From assembly GCA_013791885.1 (NCBI GenBank), contig VMSZ01000039.1, positions 1-40,648 on the forward strand: a DNA stretch of 40,648 nucleotides, in the 5' to 3' direction. Positions 926 through 40,422 of this stretch are shown here, in pieces. Positions within the stretch are counted from its first letter, which is position 1, and every line of letters begins with the position of its first letter. The notes below the pieces were generated by a model that was not told the DNA's origin, ran no database searches, and saw nothing but the letters and a program-made list of their open reading frames with translations. Both the position numbers and the translations under genes were made by a program. Source of the DNA: Sulfurimonas sp. (GTDB lineage Bacteria; Campylobacterota; Campylobacteria; Campylobacterales; Sulfurimonadaceae).

Positions 926-2209
926 TTAAATTTTTTTTATAATTTTTTTCAATATAAAAAATAAAATAAGAATAGACCCTAATATTCCAACTAAAACTTC
1001 TGTTCTTGTTAAAAACTCTATTTTAACATTATGCTCATTTGAAAACTCAGCTTTAGCAAACTCTATAATATCTTTAGAAACAGAGACAATTGTTAATAAA
1101 GTAAGTGCAGTTAAAACATATTGAACTATTCTATTCGCAGAAGTTTTCTCATTCGCTTCTACGGCGTTGTATACGTCATGAAATTTTTTTTCAGATTCTA
1201 AAAATGTTTCTTGTTGCATTTTAAACTTTTCTATTTCACGCTGAGATGTAACAAAATTATTAACATTTTCACTGAAAGAGAGCTCAGCTAGTTTATTTTT
1301 TTGTAAAAAATAACCATTGACTTTGTACATTTCAAATAAATCAGTTGATTTTATTTTAGAAATAGAATTTAAGTTAATTTCATACATTAAATCAGTATAT
1401 GTATATCCTGCAGTGTTGTAAACAACAATTTCATTCATTGTGTATGTATCAATATCTAAGAGATTTGAAAAATCATTTTGCAATGATTCTGTCTTCTCGG
1501 AATACCATAAAACAAAAGCCCAAAACAGACTGCCTTTAAAGCTCTTATGATTTGATTCAACATTGCATTCAATGTATCGAGTATCGTTGGAACTGTATTT
1601 TTTTTGAATAACAAGATAAGAATCTTCATTGGTGAGAAGTCTATGCACTCTAAGTAAATATGAATCTTGCATTTTTGAGAGATTTTTATTTTTATTATTT
1701 TCATTTTTTGCAAAAATATGAGGTATAAATTTATTTAAACCAAGGTCTTCTTCAGTGAGAGTTCCAAACTTATATGTATTAGAGAGCTGTAATATCCCCA
1801 GTTCTGACAAAATTTCATTTAATTTAAAGACTATTTTAAAAAGTTTTTCAGTATTGAGATTGGAGAACTGATCTATATCTTCATCAAATTTATCTACATT
1901 GTCATCGCGTAATTTAAAAAAGACTTCTGTAGATGTTATGCCATTTTTATGGATTTTTACAATAAAACTTTCTATTGCATATTTATTCTTGAAGTTATCA
2001 TCAATATTAAAATCATACCAATCGTCATTATTATTTTTTTGAATTGTGAACTTTAAATAGTCTATCCCATTATTGAATCTATTGAACCAATATGTTTGCA
2101 TTTCTAGTTCAATATTTTCAAATTTCTTTAAATTACTTTGGATGATGTGTTCATCAATATATTCTATTTTTCCACAAGTGAAGAAGACCCTATTCTCTAC
2201 TATATACAT
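926..2209 (-). CDS. hypothetical protein with coiled coil and C-terminal two-helix membrane anchor
   Basis: I do not recognise a family. The start is set at the ATG at 2209, which overlaps the TAA of the upstream GNAT gene (TAATG) and has an AAAGG ribosome binding site; a further in-frame ATG at 2251 lies inside the GNAT gene. The product is 427 residues, mostly polar and rich in Asn, Lys and Asp. A charged helical stretch (about residues 320-365) precedes two hydrophobic helices near 367-385 and 405-423, ending in a Lys-rich tail. A long soluble domain, then a helix, then two terminal membrane helices recalls CorA-like topology, but no GMN-type motif is visible. The DNA is clearly more AT-rich than the DUF2156 gene upstream, which suggests acquisition together with the GNAT gene. 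Confidence 0.75.
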   Translation of the reverse strand: MYIVENRVFFTCGKIEYIDEHIIQSNLKKFENIELEMQTYWFNRFNNGIDYLKFTIQKNNNDDWYDFNIDDNFKNKYAIESFIVKIHKNGITSTEVFFKLRDDNVDKFDEDIDQFSNLNTEKLFKIVFKLNEILSELGILQLSNTYKFGTLTEEDLGLNKFIPHIFAKNENNKNKNLSKMQDSYLLRVHRLLTNEDSYLVIQKKYSSNDTRYIECNVESNHKSFKGSLFWAFVLWYSEKTESLQNDFSNLLDIDTYTMNEIVVYNTAGYTYTDLMYEINLNSISKIKSTDLFEMYKVNGYFLQKNKLAELSFSENVNNFVTSQREIEKFKMQQETFLESEKKFHDVYNAVEANEKTSANRIVQYVLTALTLLTIVSVSKDIIEFAKAEFSNEHNVKIEFLTRTEVLVGILGSILILFFILKKIIKKI

Positions 2210-2664
2210 TATAAACCTTTTGTTTGTTTTGTCATTCTTAGTGCGCTGCATCCATCAGGATAATAGTTTTCCAACTCTTTCCAAATAGAATATCCCATAT
2301 TTTTATATCTTCTGTGCAAAGCTTTATTGTCTTTTCTTATCTCTAATATAATAGTATTTAAGTGCAAGTTCTTAGATGTAGTTTCAATTATATTAAATAG
2401 CGTTTTTGCAGCATCAGTACTTTGATACTCTTTTAAAACAGCCAAAGAATTAAACCATATAGCTTTTCTATTGATAATTATACCCAGTGAATATCCTACA
2501 GGCATATTTTTTTCATTACAGTAAACGTATAGATAGGTGGATTTTTTACTTAATAGTTTATTAATTTCTTTTAAACTAAGTCCACAGTAAATAGAGTCAT
2601 CAAACATTGCTTTTTCTATTGCATAAATTGCTTCAGCATCATTTTTAGTAGCTAATCTAATCAT
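2209..2664 (-). CDS. GNAT-family N-acetyltransferase
   Basis: 151 residues with a RimI-like arrangement: an N-terminal MIRLATKNDAEAIYAIE strand-helix, a central region with 'GYSLGIIINRKAIWFNSLAV', and the typical C-terminal 'LEIRKDNKALHRRYKNMGY' block. The last two are where GNAT enzymes bind acetyl-CoA and end their fold. The acetyl-CoA loop, normally R/Q-x-x-G-x-G/A, is degenerate here (EYQSTDAA), so activity is uncertain. It lies 11 bp after the DUF2156 gene and its stop codon overlaps the next start, so the three minus-strand genes look like one operon. The substrate is unknown. Close coupling to the membrane protein suggests the two act together. Confidence 0.8.
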   Translation of the reverse strand: MIRLATKNDAEAIYAIEKAMFDDSIYCGLSLKEINKLLSKKSTYLYVYCNEKNMPVGYSLGIIINRKAIWFNSLAVLKEYQSTDAAKTLFNIIETTSKNLHLNTIILEIRKDNKALHRRYKNMGYSIWKELENYYPDGCSALRMTKQTKGL

Positions 2665-2675
2665 TTATTTCAACC

Positions 2676-3656
2676 TTATTTTTGGTAAATGGTATACTTT
2701 GGAACAAGTTTAAACGGACGGTAGGACATTTTCACTTTACGAAGATTTTCAAATCCCATGTCATCGCCGACATTGATGTAGGTAACCCCATAATGCTCTT
2801 TGAGCATTTTAGAAAATTCTCGGAAAATATACTGAGCGCATCCAAGTACCTCAAAGTCAGTTTTTTCTATGATAACAGTGGCAGTTGTCTCGTTAATTCT
2901 CTCACCTGCCGTAAAGCCTTTAAGCTCACCGTTAATGTAAATAACAAGCCCGATAAGACCGAGTGCATCAAAATGTTTGAGCATTTGCTTGATTGCAGAG
3001 CGCTCTTGGTGAATTCCCTCTAAAAAAACTTCCGCTTCTTCTTTTGGCATATATCGCACTCTGTCAGAAACCCATTTGTTAAAAAGTCCCATAATCTCAT
3101 CTTTATGTTTTGCGCTCTCAAGCGGCTCAATAGTATGGTCCGAGTAAGATTTTGTAAATTTGTTTATCTCCGTGCGTTTAGTATGGTAGCTGTTTCCGCG
3201 CAACTCAATCAAGCTCTCTACCGAATAAATGTAATCAACAAGTTTTTTCTCAACGATGTAATGCTCAAGCATCTCAAACATACTTTCCGCTTCGTCAGCC
3301 GACTGCACAAACTCGTTTATCATATCTCCATGCACATAATCAATACGCGCATAGTAAGGAGAAGAGTTGTTTGCGTTCATAATTTCAAAACATCTTATGA
3401 TTGCATCGGTTACATATTTTTTCTTTCCCAAAGGAGGCAACAGCATTGTGAGCTCTCCGCCAGTCATAACAAAAAGACAAAAACATTTATTTATAATGGC
3501 ATAAAATCCGCTGCTATTGGCAAGCCAGATGTAATTTGCGGCAAAAGTGTAATCACTGAGGTCAGTGTTGAGTTTTGTAAGGTGCTTCTCCATAATAGGT
3601 TTTGAGTCAAGTGTAAAAGGCTTGAGTATCTGTTTTTTTACGGTGAGATTAGCCAT
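2676..3656 (-). CDS. DUF2156 domain protein (lysyltransferase-C-like / GNAT fold)
   Basis: 326 residues with an AAAGGA ribosome binding site just upstream of the ATG. The sequence has the features I associate with DUF2156, the double-GNAT fold also found in the C-terminal part of MprF-type phosphatidylglycerol lysyltransferases. These are an N-terminal 'DYTFAANYIWLANS' region, 'PPLGKKKYVTDAI' in the middle, and a C-terminal 'YINVGDDMGFENLRKVKMSY' block ending near 'PFKLVPKYTIY'. Stand-alone members of this length are common in Campylobacterota and are annotated without defined function. No membrane segment is obvious, unlike full MprF. It is the first gene of the minus-strand group and has normal base composition compared with the AT-rich genes after it. 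Confidence 0.8.
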   Translation of the reverse strand: MANLTVKKQILKPFTLDSKPIMEKHLTKLNTDLSDYTFAANYIWLANSSGFYAIINKCFCLFVMTGGELTMLLPPLGKKKYVTDAIIRCFEIMNANNSSPYYARIDYVHGDMINEFVQSADEAESMFEMLEHYIVEKKLVDYIYSVESLIELRGNSYHTKRTEINKFTKSYSDHTIEPLESAKHKDEIMGLFNKWVSDRVRYMPKEEAEVFLEGIHQERSAIKQMLKHFDALGLIGLVIYINGELKGFTAGERINETTATVIIEKTDFEVLGCAQYIFREFSKMLKEHYGVTYINVGDDMGFENLRKVKMSYRPFKLVPKYTIYQK

Positions 3657-34042: not shown

Positions 34043-34126
34043 AAAGAAGAGCCGTTCAGCGTGTGAACAAGCGTGTTTTGTTTTCCGTTTTTAAAACGTA
34101 TTTTGCGCGTTTTGCTTTAAAGTCTC
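34043..34126 (-). pseudogene. serS internal fragment (copy 1)
   Basis: On the minus strand this reads as part of seryl-tRNA synthetase near its C-terminus, equivalent to '[18 protein letters not shown]' and '[10 protein letters not shown]' of the intact gene. It differs by a one-base deletion in the 'RAKIRF' region that breaks the frame, and by several substitutions. It includes the shared core (34046-34098) plus about 28 bp of the upstream serS body, but not the last ~35 codons. It is therefore a degraded remnant of serS, not a gene. Confidence 0.8.
34046..34098 (-). repeat. serS core direct repeat, copy 1
   Basis: About 53 bp matching the same core at 37926-37978 and in the intact serS at 39275-39327, all in the same orientation. 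The stretch GTGTGAACAAGCGT is identical in all three. Probable attachment-site remnant. Confidence 0.7.
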
Positions 34127-34225
34127 CTGCTCTGAGAGGGGTTTAACTTGGATTAATTACAAAGGGAGTAAAATTTATTTGGTTTTTAAATAATCAATCT
34201 CTTTAGAGAGATAGGATGGCTTTAT

Positions 34226-35854
34226 ATGGAAAATTCCATTAAACGGTTTTCGGTTTTGTTTTCACTCTTCTTAGGTACTTTTTGCTATGCAGACATAAAT
34301 ATTGAGATTAACAATGCTCACTTATTGCTCTACCAAGGCAAGTATACACAAGCCGAACAAGCTTATACCCAACTTATGATCCCGGCCGCTGATGAGTTTA
34401 TTGTCGGTGCTGTTTTGGTTGATACACTCCATATTAACAGAGCCATCGCGCGATTGGTACAACACAAAATAGAGCTTGCAAATGAAGATATCGAAATGGC
34501 TTTTCATCCCAAAAGCAGCTTTATGTATGATGACTCCGGGTATATGTTGCGCGCTAGAGTGCGTTTAATGCAAGGAGATGTAAAAGGCGCTTTAGAGGAC
34601 TATGACCAGCAAATTAAAAATTCTGAAAAAGGGTCGCTCAATGGATATCGTTTTGCTTCGGGCATGGCACAACGCGCTTGGGCACATCTTGTACTAGGGG
34701 AAGCAGAAGCGGCAAAAAATGACTTTCTCACCGCAATTTCTACTGATACAAAAATTTTGGGAATGGATCCTAATCCTCTGCAAAAACCTTTTTGGCAAGC
34801 CGTCGTCAATGAGGTCGTGCCTTTAGTTGAAAAAAAAGACAGCACAGCTATCTATCAAACAATCGATGCAATTTTGCAAAGGCAAAATATCAAGGCATAT
34901 CCATTTTCCGCGTCCGCCAGTATTGAGCAGAAAAACTTTGCCAATACAATCTTGCTCTATGAAATCTACGGTCCGGCTTTTCTTTTAAGAGAAAAAGCCC
35001 AGCAAGAAAAAATGAAAATGCACCGTGAAAATGTCAGCACACTCTTCAGTTCAGCTCAACAAGCACTTTTAAAAGGGGATAAACAGGGTGCTTTTGTCTT
35101 ATTTGTGAATGCTTTTAAAAGTGCCGTCAATGAGGATAGAGCGAGTCGTGACAGTGCTCTGCAAGGTATTTCGGGACTTTTTAATTCCGGCTTTACTCCA
35201 CCGTTAATGAATGAAAAAGCACGCCGTCTTGCAATTGAAGCACAGGTGGTGGCTCAAGAGAAGAATTACCAAGAAGCTATTCAGATTTACTGGAGAGCCA
35301 TTAACGAAGCACCTTGGGTAGCTAATCTGCATTATGACTATGCATTGCTTATTGCAGAAGCAGCGCAAACGCAGGATGACTTTAACACGGCTATCGTTGA
35401 AATGAAGCGTTTTATTATGCTTTCAAAAAACAGTGCAGAAACGAGAGAAGCACAGGACCGCATCTACTTATGGGAAATAAAACGCAATAGAAAAGTTGCT
35501 CCAAATCCAGTCCCGCAACCTCATGTAGTAAGTAGTGCAACAGCAGGTGCTAGTGATTGTTTTATTGCAACTGCCGCTTATGGTTCGTTTTTAGATCCAC
35601 ATGTTCTGACATTGCGAGTATTCCGTGACCAGTATCTTTTAACTAATTCTCCTGGACAATGGCTGGTGGAACACTATTATCACTATTCACCTTCTATTGC
35701 TGATATCATCAGAGAAAATGAGTGGTTACGCATGATTGTACGAATTGTCCTGACACCGATTATTTTTAGTATAGAGTATCCTTTGATGATTCTTCTTGTT
35801 TTGTTGTCGATACTGTCATTTAAAAAAACAAGACAATGGTCTCTCCTCCGATGA
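34226..35854 (+). CDS. TPR-like protein with CFI-box C-terminal domain
   Basis: 542 residues. A signal peptide (about 1-23, '[16 protein letters not shown]') is followed by TPR-like helical repeats ('[20 protein letters not shown]' and, later, '[20 protein letters not shown]'). A spacer with Pro residues leads to '[18 protein letters not shown]', the CFI box, then '[20 protein letters not shown]', '[12 protein letters not shown]' and a final membrane helix at about 506-532 ending in basic residues. This C-terminal module is known as the CFI-box-CTERM domain and has no established function, though a sorting or processing role has been suggested. It is the first of three genes with overlapping ends. 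Flanking serS fragments mark it as accessory. Confidence 0.85.
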
Positions 35855-37041
35855 AAACACGATTAAGAGATGTCGCAATTACAATGTTTTGTATCGCTTC
35901 AATACTTCAGGGTGATAGTGCACTGCAACAGCTGTACGATGCCGGAGGGCAGCCTCGGAATGTTCCTATGCCGCCAACGCCGACAAGAGTGTATAACAAG
36001 AGTTCCGATTCTTCACAATCATCACAAAACACTCAAAGCAGCAGGCCTTCCAAAAGCTACCGCGCGCCAAGTACTTCTGCCATGGTGGGTGCAACAATTT
36101 TTGGAACTCTTTTAGAAAATGTTTTATTTGATTCTCCAGCCTCAAATCAGCCAGATCCTGAAACACTGCGACTTCAAGCAGAACAACAACGTCTTGCACA
36201 GGAGGAAGCGGAGCGAAAAGCAAAAGAACGGCAGATTCATCATCAAAAGCTAATGGGCTCTTTTAAAAGTGTTCCTTCTACAAGCAGTACAACCGAAGAG
36301 ACATCTGCATCGCATTTGGCATTTAAAACCGCTCAAACAAGCGATGTTTCTAAAATCGATACCAGCTCAGATGAAGCGCTAAGAGAGTCCGCATCAAGAC
36401 CATTTGACGGAGGCGGATCACATACAGTTTTTGCCGAGCGTTTGAACCCCACTCCTTTAAGTAAAACATCTCTTTCTATACCCAGTGCTGTTCCACTGTG
36501 TCAAAATGGCAATTGTTCTTGGCCGACAAAAACTAATTCTGTTGTCACTACACTCCCTAAGGCTCAAATTTACACCAAAACAGTAAACCTTTCTAAGCTA
36601 AGCAATGGCTCGATTCCAAATCCAAAAGAGTTTATTTATAGTATTTTGGGAGATTATGAAACAAAGAGCGACAAGCGCTATCTTGTCCTCAATCGATTGA
36701 GCTATCTTACACGCGAAATAGGCAAAGAACTATTGATAAGTATTACTATGAAAATCATTGAATCAACCTCAATGGGGGATAAACTTTCACTTATTAAAGA
36801 TGTTCATGACCTTGCTGTGGACGATATGGAAAATGCTATTAAAGTAGCTTCTTGGCTAGGCTCAACCCAGCTGGACAATCCTCCTGAGATCACCTCCGTG
36901 TCTGAAGCTGCTAAGCCTTTTTTATTGAAAGCCATGGGTACTTCAGAATCTTTTGAAGAAATCGCTAGTCTAATCAGCGGTACGAGTGAACTATTTGGAA
37001 TGTCTGCAAAATTATCTACTATCATTAAGGAGATGCCTTGA
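35851..37041 (+). CDS. exported hypothetical protein with low-complexity N-terminal half
   Basis: 396 residues from the ATG at 35851, which overlaps the upstream stop codon (ATGA); a start 15 bp earlier is possible. A short signal-like segment ('[18 protein letters not shown]') is followed by Ser/Gln/Pro-rich sequence, a glycine-alanine segment '[18 protein letters not shown]', then a charged coiled-coil run ('[20 protein letters not shown]'). The C-terminal ~150 residues are more ordered and helical ('[20 protein letters not shown]'). Three Cys occur, two of them as 'LCQNGNCSW'. I do not recognise a family. It is the middle gene of the CFI-box operon and probably works at the membrane or in the periplasm. 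Confidence 0.75.
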
Positions 37042-37814
37042 AAATTGTTTATATATGGATTTTGGCATATTTAATGGCTTATGCTGCTCCCATTGATATA
37101 GCACCGAAACTTAAAATTTATAGTATGCCAAATGCTTTGACAAGTAAAATAGATTGGCGCTCTGATACCCAGCTGTATGTCTCTTCTTTGGGACTTTGGA
37201 TTTCTGCGGAAAAAAATATCTATAGACTAGACAAACCTTCTAAAGCACTCACGATTCCTTTGCATGTAAGCTCTTTTACGCTTGCCAAAAGTGGTCATCC
37301 CGTTGCCATTGTTGATGAACAGCTAGGTCTAATAAATCATGGATTTTTTCTCCCCAGCCTTAAGCTTCCTATGGCTGGATATTCACTCGCAGAGGGCCCA
37401 AATGATACACTGTACCTCTACAATTCGACAATAGCGGCACCCATTTACCATTTTGATGGAAATATGATAACTCCGATGGCACTTCCAAGTGAAGCTGTTC
37501 AATCCTTGACTTATGCGGGCAGTGCCATCATTTTTGCTACAAAAGAGGGTATTTTTTCATTAGAATCCGGCAAACCGTTAGGATTAATCATGCCTTTACC
37601 GGATTTTGCAACTATTCTTTCGATTGCCGTAAATCCCGATACGGCAGAATTATTTGTAAGTACACATGATACTGTTTACAGTCTAAACAATGGGCTTATG
37701 ACACCTCTTGTCACAGGTGTAGGAGGAGCAGTCGCATTTTATGATAATTGTTTATGGATAGCCGATTCACTGCGACAACAAGTGTATATTATAATGCCCA
37801 ATCAACTTAAATAA
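37038..37814 (+). CDS. exported beta-propeller-like hypothetical protein
   Basis: 258 residues from a TTG start at 37038, with AAGGAG five nt upstream and a four-base overlap with the preceding stop codon (TTGA). A signal peptide ([16 protein letters not shown], cleavage before APID) precedes repeated short strand patterns, such as 'IDWRSDTQLYVSSLGLWISA', 'GPNDTLYLYNSTI', 'NPDTAELFVSTHDTVYSLNN' and 'FYDNCLWIADSLRQQVYIIM'. These look like NHL or WD-type propeller blades. No catalytic motif is seen. It ends the three-gene operon, 10 bp before the second serS fragment. Confidence 0.75.
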   Translation: MKIVYIWILAYLMAYAAPIDIAPKLKIYSMPNALTSKIDWRSDTQLYVSSLGLWISAEKNIYRLDKPSKALTIPLHVSSFTLAKSGHPVAIVDEQLGLINHGFFLPSLKLPMAGYSLAEGPNDTLYLYNSTIAAPIYHFDGNMITPMALPSEAVQSLTYAGSAIIFATKEGIFSLESGKPLGLIMPLPDFATILSIAVNPDTAELFVSTHDTVYSLNNGLMTPLVTGVGGAVAFYDNCLWIADSLRQQVYIIMPNQLK

Positions 37815-37824
37815 TACTGTCGGC

Positions 37825-38187
<363 letters not shown>

Positions 38188-38238
38188 ACTTTTATTATTT
38201 ATAGTATCATTATCATAGTTAAAGGATGTGGAGTAAAT

Positions 38239-39105
38239 ATGTTATATCATTACACAAGCTTACAGGGTTTGATGGGAATAATTAATAGTAAGAGTATATG
38301 GGCGAGTAATAGTGATTATTTAAATGATCATAGTGAGTATTCTCATTTATTTAATTTAGTGAGTGATTATATAAACAAAAACTATTTTGATGATGATTAT
38401 TTATCTCCTTATTCCTTTAGTGTACAAATGAATCGCCCTAAGTATGGAAACAAAAATCCTCAGGTCTTTATTGGTTCATTTAGTGAATCATCTGATTTAT
38501 TAAGTCAATGGAGAGGTTATTGTCCAGAGTCTGGAGGTATATGTATTGGTTTTAATCGTGAAAGTTTAGAGCGTATGGTCAAAGCATCTGGCTATGAATT
38601 AAAAAAATGCATTTACTTAGAAGAAGAACAAAATAAGATTGTTGCAGAAGTTGTTGAAAAGTCAATTCTAGAATTCCCTAAATTGGTTGAGGATCGTTCA
38701 GTATATGTAAAATTACCTGATAGAGAACAATGGCAAAAGGCAAATGAGCTAAATGAGTATGTATCTAAAGGGGAAGGAAAAGTTCAAGCGGATAAGGTAG
38801 TTTCTGAACTATATACATCAATTAGTGGGCTTGCTCCACTAATTAAGCACACATCTTTCAAAGAAGAAGTGGAATGGCGAATAATTTGTAAAAATCCAAA
38901 TACTAAAACAATGTTTAGAGAAGCAAATACATATTTAGTTCCGTATATCGCATTAGATATAGAACCTGATTTTATTTCAGAGATTATAATTGGACCTAAT
39001 GCTAATAGTGAAAGATGTTTAAAGTCAGTGAAAGACTTTTTAATGTTAAATGGATTTGAAAATATAAATTATAAAATATCAGAAATACCACTTAATAGTT
39101 GGTAA
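38239..39105 (+). CDS. DUF2971 family protein
   Basis: 288 residues. The N-terminal 'LYHYTSLQGLMGIINSKSIW' followed by 'ASNSDYLNDHSEY', the central 'FIGSFSESSDLLSQWRGYC' and 'GGICIGFNRESLERM', and 'HTSFKEEVEWRIICKNP' near the end are the hallmarks of DUF2971. These proteins have unknown function and are sometimes labelled Abi-like; they are common in islands. A GGAG ribosome binding site precedes the ATG. The gene is more AT-rich than serS and lies between two serS tails, so it is best seen as element cargo. A role in phage defence is possible, not shown. Confidence 0.85.
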   Translation: MLYHYTSLQGLMGIINSKSIWASNSDYLNDHSEYSHLFNLVSDYINKNYFDDDYLSPYSFSVQMNRPKYGNKNPQVFIGSFSESSDLLSQWRGYCPESGGICIGFNRESLERMVKASGYELKKCIYLEEEQNKIVAEVVEKSILEFPKLVEDRSVYVKLPDREQWQKANELNEYVSKGEGKVQADKVVSELYTSISGLAPLIKHTSFKEEVEWRIICKNPNTKTMFREANTYLVPYIALDIEPDFISEIIIGPNANSERCLKSVKDFLMLNGFENINYKISEIPLNSW

Positions 39106-39171
39106 AAAAAGAAGCAGCTAATAGGCAGTTACTTTAAAATAAATCTGCCCATTGAGATAAAAAGAAAAAAT

Positions 39172-40422
39172 TTACATTCCCATATAAGGTTTTAAAACCT
39201 TAGGGATATCTATACTTCCATCTTCATTTTGAAAGTTTTCCATGATGGCTACCATAGTTCTGCCAACCGCCAATGAAGAGCCGTTTAGCGTGTGAACAAG
39301 CGTGTTTTGTTTTCCGTCTTTAAAACGGATTTTTGCGCGTCTTGCTTGGAAATCTCTTGTGTTTGAAACAGAAGAGATTTCTCTATAAGTTGCTTGCCCA
39401 GGTAACCAAACTTCAAGGTCTACAGTTTTTGCAGCGCCAAAACCTAAGTCTCCAGTGCATAATGTAACAAGTCTATGCGGGAGTTCAAGCGCGGTTAATA
39501 AGTCTGAAGCACAGGCAACCATTTCTTCAAACATAGCATCGCTTTGCTCAGGTTTTGTCATAGCAACAAGTTCTACTTTGTGAAATTGGTGTTGTCGTAT
39601 CATTCCGCGAGTGTCGCGTCCTGCGGCTCCGGCTTCTTTTCTAAAACATGAAGTGTAAGCGGTCATTTTGATTGGGAGTTGATCTTCGTTTAAAATCTCA
39701 TCTTGGTAAAGATTTGTAACAGGAACTTCAGCTGTGGGGATTAAAAACAACTCTTGCCCGTCTATCTTGTATAAGTCATCTTCAAATTTAGGAAGTTGCC
39801 CGGTTCCCTCAAGTGCCGCACGGTTTACAAGCGCCGGAACACTTACTTCGTCAAAGCCGCGTTTAGAGTTAAAGTTGAGCATAAAGTTAATAAGTGCGCG
39901 TTCAAGTTTCGCACCCATTCCAAAACAGACACTAAAACGGCTTGTGGCAAGTTTTACGCCGCGTTCAAAGTCTATCCAGCCATTTTGCTCTGCAAGTTCC
40001 CAGTGCTCTTTTGGTGTGAAGTTAAACTCTCTTGGTGTGAGTACTTTTTTTATCTCAATGTTGTCATTTTCATCCGCTCCATCCGGAACACTATCGTCCG
40101 GAAAATTTGGAATGGACATTGCAATGTTTTCAAGCTCTTCTTGCTTGATTCTTTGCACTTCTATGGCATCTGCAACCTTGAGTTTATTAGCATCAACTTT
40201 TGCTTTAAGTTCTGTGACATCTTTTTTCTCACGCATAAGCTGGCCGAACTCTTTACTCATTGCGTTTTGGTCTGCTTGAAGTGTTTCGTATGCTGCTTTT
40301 GCAGATTTGAGTTCTTCGTTTTTATTTTTTAAATTTTCTATGAGAGCGGCATCTACACCCTTTCTCATAAGCTTTGTATTGACTGTGTCAAAATCTTTTT
40401 GAAGTAGTTTTAAATCAATCAT
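39172..40422 (-). CDS. serS: seryl-tRNA synthetase
   Basis: 416 residues, full length. It charges tRNA-Ser with serine. The N-terminal two-helix coiled-coil arm that grips the tRNA long arm covers about 25-105. Class II motif 2 is visible as '[20 protein letters not shown]', and motif 3 in the region '[20 protein letters not shown]'. The C-terminal ~50 codons contain the core repeat of the nearby fragments, and the tail differs from the displaced tail at 37825. The functional gene thus seems to carry a tail brought by an integrated element. It has a GGATC element close before the ATG. Confidence 0.98.
39275..39327 (-). repeat. serS core direct repeat, copy 3 (in the intact gene)
   Basis: The intact-gene copy of the core, encoding part of '[19 protein letters not shown]'. 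Presumed current attachment site. Confidence 0.7.

Follow-up and report, generated by a model that had tools for sequence, protein, structure and literature searches.

Mobile elements that probably insert into the 3' end of serS in Sulfurimonas and bring a replacement gene end

Integrative and conjugative elements (ICEs) of streptococci use the 3' ends of the protein-coding genes lysS, rpsI, rplL, rpmG and guaA as targets (PMC4701971). The decay of elements to cis-mobilizable elements (CIMEs) and their accretion at one attachment site have also been described (PMC5704250), and it is general background that genomic islands often restore their target gene (PMC12884075). Here we describe serS, the gene for seryl-tRNA synthetase, in a 40,648-nucleotide stretch of Sulfurimonas sp. 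DNA (contig VMSZ01000039.1 of assembly GCA_013791885.1, positions 1 to 40,648; hereafter the window), together with its counterparts in relatives. Two further systems offer a comparison: tycheposons and similar small cargo elements rebuild a tRNA end, replacing the gene end on insertion, and in integrons a tyrosine recombinase adds gene cassettes, as short units of cargo, at a single place in the chromosome. We consider it very probable that a family of tyrosine recombinases inserts elements into serS at the codons for VWLPGQ and that these elements bring a replacement end for the gene. A preliminary description of the window had proposed that elements integrated repeatedly into the serS 3' end, and this proposal is supported by a fixed junction, a complete recombinase beside serS, shared element ends and an empty site in relatives.

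The protein-coding target sets the serS elements apart from tycheposons. They differ from integrons in that their one complete recombinase (locus L041) scores 44 bits against the integron-integrase model TIGR02249, where the cutoff is 265, and in that the tail motif described below stands only behind serS ends and not between cassettes. The resemblance to the streptococcal ICEs lies in the tyrosine recombinase, the conserved 3' end of an essential protein gene as the target and the restoration of that gene; the streptococcal lysS target is, like serS, an aminoacyl-tRNA synthetase gene (PMC4701971). Unlike those ICEs, the serS elements have their target 79 codons from the gene end, span 1.9-9.4 kb and lack a recombinase of the L041 family in four of the five cases that share a contig with serS, and no relaxase or conjugation family was found by Pfam among the nine open reading frames (ORFs) scanned in L041, smaller ORFs being outside the scan. 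As in CIMEs and accretion arrays, recombinase-less remnants keep attachment ends and later elements insert in front of them (PMC5704250); unlike in CIMEs, the recombinase-less state is common here, and the cargo differs while the terminal motifs are shared.

The C-terminus of SerS was searched for in 135 genomes of the genus; 123 matched, 15 of them with two or more matches. Besides the window, 106 serS-related loci were gathered (L031-L056 and L058-L137; L numbers designate loci and G numbers genomes), and for 97 of these 107 loci an end of serS fixed the orientation. In the ten that were dropped, no serS with 100 or more aligned residues extended to the gene end, and the contig-edge loci of G013, G049, G070 and G101, as well as some further genomes, lay outside the survey. 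At least 300 bp downstream of serS was available in 95 oriented loci, nine of which carry a second serS 3' end downstream (L031, L032, L033, L037, L038, L041, L042, L043 and the window). The displaced ends of L031, L032, L037, L041 and L042 all begin at one nucleotide, position 34 in the final 270 sense nt, where the valine codon of VWLPGQ starts, 79 codons from the end of serS. Those of the window, L033, L038 and L043 begin later and are truncated. From the serS end to the junction there are 2136 nt in L031, 3898 in L032, 4404 in L037, 9443 in L041 and 1907 in L042. The same junction recurs in L045 and L049, on contigs without the intact serS of their genome. Beside the elements of L031, L032, L037, L041 and L042, and in the window, the serS frame is intact, that is, the target gene has been restored.

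Matches of 18-33 nt in L096, L098 and L106 were too short to be taken as displaced ends and were set aside. Two more displaced ends lie elsewhere in the G043 chromosome, with the same start codon, different outside DNA and an IS256-like insert; at these two sites far from serS (L151 and L152), stretches of about 4.2 kb are 94% identical and the displaced serS end is split by the insert. In L052 (G146) serS aligned as four pieces in differing frames, which reflects damage or an assembly error.

The elements also share their ends. A repeat on the outer side of the junction, ACTGCCTATAYMCTGCY (the P repeat), was found at five sites in five of the 135 genomes, every one of them 87-89 nt outside a junction (88 nt in L031, L041 and L045, 89 in L037 and 87 in L042). 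The terminus GTCAAACTATTGTATACTAACACTT, with up to 3 mismatches allowed, gave three sites in three of the 135 genomes, all at a junction, and its reversed control gave 0. Behind the serS stop stands a tail, GGCAGN(4-18)ACTGCCTATTNNNNGCC, which in its exact form occurs at nine sites in eight of the 135 genomes, of which seven directly follow a serS stop and the other two follow the displaced serS ends of G043. When up to 2 substitutions were allowed, the tail was present in 23 of 96 loci, the window (39113-39129) included: of the 9 loci that have a displaced end 7 carried it, compared with 16 of the other 87 (Fisher p 5e-4). A lack of element variation among relatives, which the preliminary description had named as its refutation, was not observed: the tail was present in 0 of 23 loci with a TPR-gene neighbour starting less than 300 bp from serS, compared with 23 of the 73 others. 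A loose form of the pattern was found behind serS in 19 of 96 loci; the controls gave 4 of 87 at a distance of two kb, 2 of 96 on the reverse strand and 0 of 96 after shuffling. The P repeat and the tail are putative binding sites of the recombinase.

A second short serS end (codons 393-416 plus stop) was observed just inside the P repeat of L031 (L031:6205-6276), as if the element end there derived from an earlier serS end with its tail.

Such junctions might also arise by homologous or illegitimate recombination, with foreign DNA carrying a serS end taken up by natural transformation and no site-specific recombinase involved. The 3' ends of serS are similar enough to recombine, and tail-bearing ends appear more alike than would be expected from their 5' parts, a similarity reached in 18 of 5000 label permutations (the labels include the tail-less L031, the boundary used, 1015, is 3 nt off the crossover at 1012 of 1248, and the change-points were read on pairs selected by the same statistic). 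However, neither seven junctions at one nucleotide nor, at five of them, a repeat spaced a constant 87-89 nt away is expected from homologous recombination, and we judge it very unlikely as the origin of the displaced ends.

One comparison displays an empty site. With its flanks joined in silico, L042 aligns with the insert-free L088 over 1-1526, a stretch that spans both the crossover (nt 1012) and the stop, and then over 1613-3604; left unjoined, the alignment stops at 1250 and restarts with nt 1012. L125, the nearest relative of L041, is also empty, and the far flank of L041 is without the TPR gene in the stretch examined. The preliminary description had called for a search of relatives for empty sites and for a full integrase beside serS, and both were found, the former in L042 against L088 and the latter in L041.

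The element of L041 (G096) encodes a complete tyrosine recombinase of 428 aa, with PF00589 (Phage_integrase) and PF22022 (Phage_int_M) domains, and the 3' end of its gene lies about 90 bp from the serS stop. Remnants are kept by two further genomes: the window remnant has 80% nucleotide identity to the L041 gene over 222 nt (67% at the aa level), and a C-terminal remnant in G065 (L077) is 68% identical. These three are the relatives of more than 60% identity in the genus, and all lie beside serS with the 3' end of the gene toward it. When the L041 recombinase was used as the query at E values up to 1e-3, only L041, the window and L077 matched among the surveyed loci. The elements of L031, L032, L037 and L042 are thus without a recombinase of the L041 family and, as in a CIME, have kept their attachment ends. 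As a separate observation, L041 has a second copy of 30 aa from the recombinase N-terminus (73%), which precedes the complete gene (downstream coordinates 1617-1706).

In wider searches, named genomes yielded one true relative of the recombinase, on the G096 contig JAPLGO010000034.1 of a Campylobacterales metagenome-assembled genome, and two distant others (26% and 37%). No relative appeared in an order-level search at E values up to 1e-55, a draw that had no positive control. IMG/VR held no recombinase relative and no match to the P arm, and its one match to the tail pattern lies inside an unrelated ORF.

The absence of an L041-type recombinase from four of the five elements on a contig with serS might suggest that another enzyme carries out the insertion and that the L041 recombinase is a passenger. 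It is hard to reconcile a passenger with the position of its close relatives in the genus, all beside serS in one orientation, or with the P repeat and tail that L041 has in common with the other elements, and we regard a passenger as quite unlikely. Catalysis by an L041-type recombinase, acting on a circular intermediate, is what we infer from the sequences.

The corresponding features of the window are listed below.

39172..40422, minus strand: intact serS, seryl-tRNA synthetase, 416 aa (PF00587, PF02403)
39172..39411, minus strand: serS 3' end, 79 codons plus stop, probably element-borne; junction placed by homology with L031, L032, L037, L041 and L042
39113..39129, minus strand: tail motif ACTGCCTATTAGCTGCT, an element end marker directly behind the serS stop (0.01 expected by chance)
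38239..39105, plus strand: cargo ORF, DUF2971 protein (PF11185, E 3e-14; weak PADLOC match to PDC-S31, E 1.5e-9)
37965..38187, plus strand: C-terminal remnant of a putative serS-targeting tyrosine recombinase (PF00589; homology to the L041 recombinase)
37825..37964, minus strand: fragment B, a displaced serS 3' end that comprises about codons 364-416 and the stop, by serS homology; its upstream part fell within the deletion joining B to the recombinase
37038..37814, plus strand: ORF of 258 aa between the displaced ends, probable cargo of an older element; no Pfam or NCBIfam match
35836..37041, plus strand: ORF of 401 aa between the displaced ends, probable cargo; no Pfam or NCBIfam match
34226..35854, plus strand: ORF of 542 aa with TPR and a CFI-box C-terminal domain, probable cargo (NF041770, E 4e-30)
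34043..34137, minus strand: fragment A, a degraded displaced serS 3' end, about codons 353-384, by serS homology, probably from the older insertion

From serS outward the order is therefore the element-borne end, the tail, the DUF2971 gene, the recombinase remnant, B, three ORFs and A. The element terminus of the window has been deleted, so the crossover, equivalent to the point between 39411 and 39412, is placed by homology and is not directly visible there. The final base of the window tail, ACTGCCTATTAGCTGCT, deviates from the exact genus-wide pattern. Beyond A lie DUF2391, chemoreceptor and PAS genes. G130 has relatives of the last two (80% and 87%), likewise ordered, ahead of its TPR gene, which suggests that this part of the window is resident DNA. 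The three ORFs at 34226-37814 share one direction, and the 542-aa ORF has a full-length match only in G000 and C-terminal matches in 3 others of the 135 genomes.

The preliminary description had started from three direct copies of a 53-bp serS core. A repeat search recovered all three, at 34043-34104, 37925-37986 and 39272-39333, with 82% and 94% identity to the reference copy and the right copy inside the intact 416-aa serS. That the two fragments derive from serS and not from something else is confirmed by tblastn with the window's own SerS, which aligns the middle copy at 79% over residues 364-416 (E 2e-21) and the left copy at 69% over residues 353-384 (E 2e-7); at the nucleotide level both are far beyond chance (E 1e-38 and 3e-27). 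The left fragment is trimmed on both sides, and its frame contains stops. The middle copy is serS as described, except that its right end is recombinase sequence and that the fragment continues to the serS stop at 37825 (80% over 167 nt). As an attachment core the 53-bp segment was rejected: it is merely the stretch that both fragments kept, and the fixed junction lies about 85 bp deeper in serS.

A broken tyrosine recombinase does adjoin the middle copy, with a PF00589 match (E 1.3e-6) in its C-terminus and HTLRH and NHRDINQILRYAK still legible. Its adjacency to B is, however, the product of a deletion. The alignment to the intact recombinase starts at 37965 and the serS match of the middle copy fades after about 37960, so that serS passes into recombinase at about 37960-37969, where a T/A-rich stretch is common to both. 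A recombinase next to B was accordingly discarded as the original layout; in L041 the gene sits at the opposite end, beside the serS stop.

One might also suspect that such structures are assembly or binning artefacts of metagenome-assembled genomes. Many of the genomes are fragmented, and the second serS of G018 and G084 may reflect binning or contig-end effects, yet the structure is present in the single-contig assemblies of G052 and G043, and the window copies have diverged (82-94% identity), unlike chimeric duplicates. An artefact is barely credible as an explanation.

The window can be read as the decayed remains of two serS insertions. Under the proposed mechanism, a recombinase of the genus would join DNA circles into serS at the VWLPGQ codons. 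The incoming element would carry its own copy of the last 79 serS codons, the stop and the tail motif; its end would restore serS and the old 3' end would be displaced downstream. Later elements would enter at the same point, and displaced ends would accumulate by accretion. An older element of the window would have brought the present fragment B and three cargo ORFs and left A, the older displaced end, and a later, recombinase-bearing element would have brought the current serS end, the tail and the DUF2971 gene and left B. Later deletions would have taken away the element terminus, the codons with which the displaced end began and the bulk of the recombinase, including its N-terminal part, fusing B to the recombinase C-terminus, and A would have been trimmed. 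This order of events is the one that the arrangement of the fragments suggests.

The cargo differs from element to element. L041 carries an AEP-TOTE primase-helicase, a cytosine methylase with a Bse634I-type endonuclease and Vsr, an AAA protein, RelB and YafQ; L031 a chemoreceptor; L032 an 1150-aa protein with TSP_3 repeats; L037 a universal stress protein and a CitMHS transporter; L042 an AAA/zeta-toxin-like protein and DUF4258; and G065 an Mrr-type helicase. No phage structural or packaging genes were found in the ORFs scanned by Pfam (PHROGs were not searched). RelB/YafQ-like pairs in L136 and L041, both of which bear the tail, look alike by reading, and Pfam supports the L041 pair only.

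Two readings of the elements without a recombinase have to be weighed. The first, towards which we lean slightly, is that they are simply decayed, each having come with its own recombinase and lost it, so that no movement in trans is needed. Recombinase loss appears to be in progress in the window and in G065. Moreover, at E values up to 1e-20, no relative of the L041 recombinase was found in the G006, G019 and G140 genomes (other recombinase families were not systematically searched), and G052 has only two distant ones (33% and 29%); decay of this kind with accretion has been described (PMC5704250). What simple decay explains less readily is that L031, L037 and L042 retain the junction and P repeat, L037 and L042 the tail as well, and that in these three a few cargo genes occupy 1.9-4.4 kb with no recombinase remnant at E values up to 1e-3. 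A second reading, offered tentatively, is that serS is a landing platform for cassettes that hold one to a few genes but no integrase and bear a serS 3' end, tail and P repeat apiece, and that would be moved in trans by the recombinase of rarer autonomous elements. The recombinase-less elements of this survey may then have been moved by an L041-type recombinase.

Several observations weigh against recombinase-mediated insertion at VWLPGQ in general. The exact P repeat was not found at the L032 and L049 junctions, there is no tail behind serS of L031, and neither P repeat nor terminus was found in the window. A match of the L041 far flank to its empty relative was not obtained. The sole complete recombinase beside serS sits in a metagenome-assembled genome, and with four of five on-contig elements lacking the gene, its link to the others rests on the shared ends. 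No excision product or circular form was seen in the assembled sequences. Finally, a genus-wide, unsupervised scan for mosaic serS genes had no change-point peak at the crossover, and neither view of the recombination gains independent support from mosaic structure.

Beyond the genus, 298 genomes of the order were searched, 280 of them outside the genus, and among the matches listed G236 and G186 had more than one serS-end match. In G236, of another family, the stretch examined shows no more than a divergent second serS-like gene (34% identity piece), directly upstream of serS (L150). SerS C-termini were also found in 21 phage and 95 plasmid records; those inspected are, by their listings, annotated serS genes or unannotated or chromosome-sized records. 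As a mobile-element site, serS was not named in the literature searched, a search whose reach excluded most subscription papers and the TIGER paper; one paper (PMC3274448) describes no more than an engineered site adjoining serS in another species.

Insertion at the 3' end of a synthetase gene is of a kind already known, lysS being the precedent (PMC4701971), and the preliminary description's view of an aminoacyl-tRNA synthetase gene as an unusual target holds in part: the serS site itself appears to be new, as do the ends shared by elements without the recombinase. With serS, an essential translation gene joins the protein-coding targets of tyrosine recombinases. The loci form a compact comparative system within one genus: an autonomous element, several others that share its ends but lack the recombinase, remnants and an empty site. 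Movement of the recombinase-less elements in trans, and the use of a conserved coding stretch as a site while the gene functions, can now be tested. The crossover may also serve as a native insertion site for the genus. If serS is indeed a landing platform, chemoreceptor, transporter, toxin-antitoxin-like and restriction cargo would be shuffled into one essential gene in an integron-like manner, and the integrity of serS would select for correct insertion.

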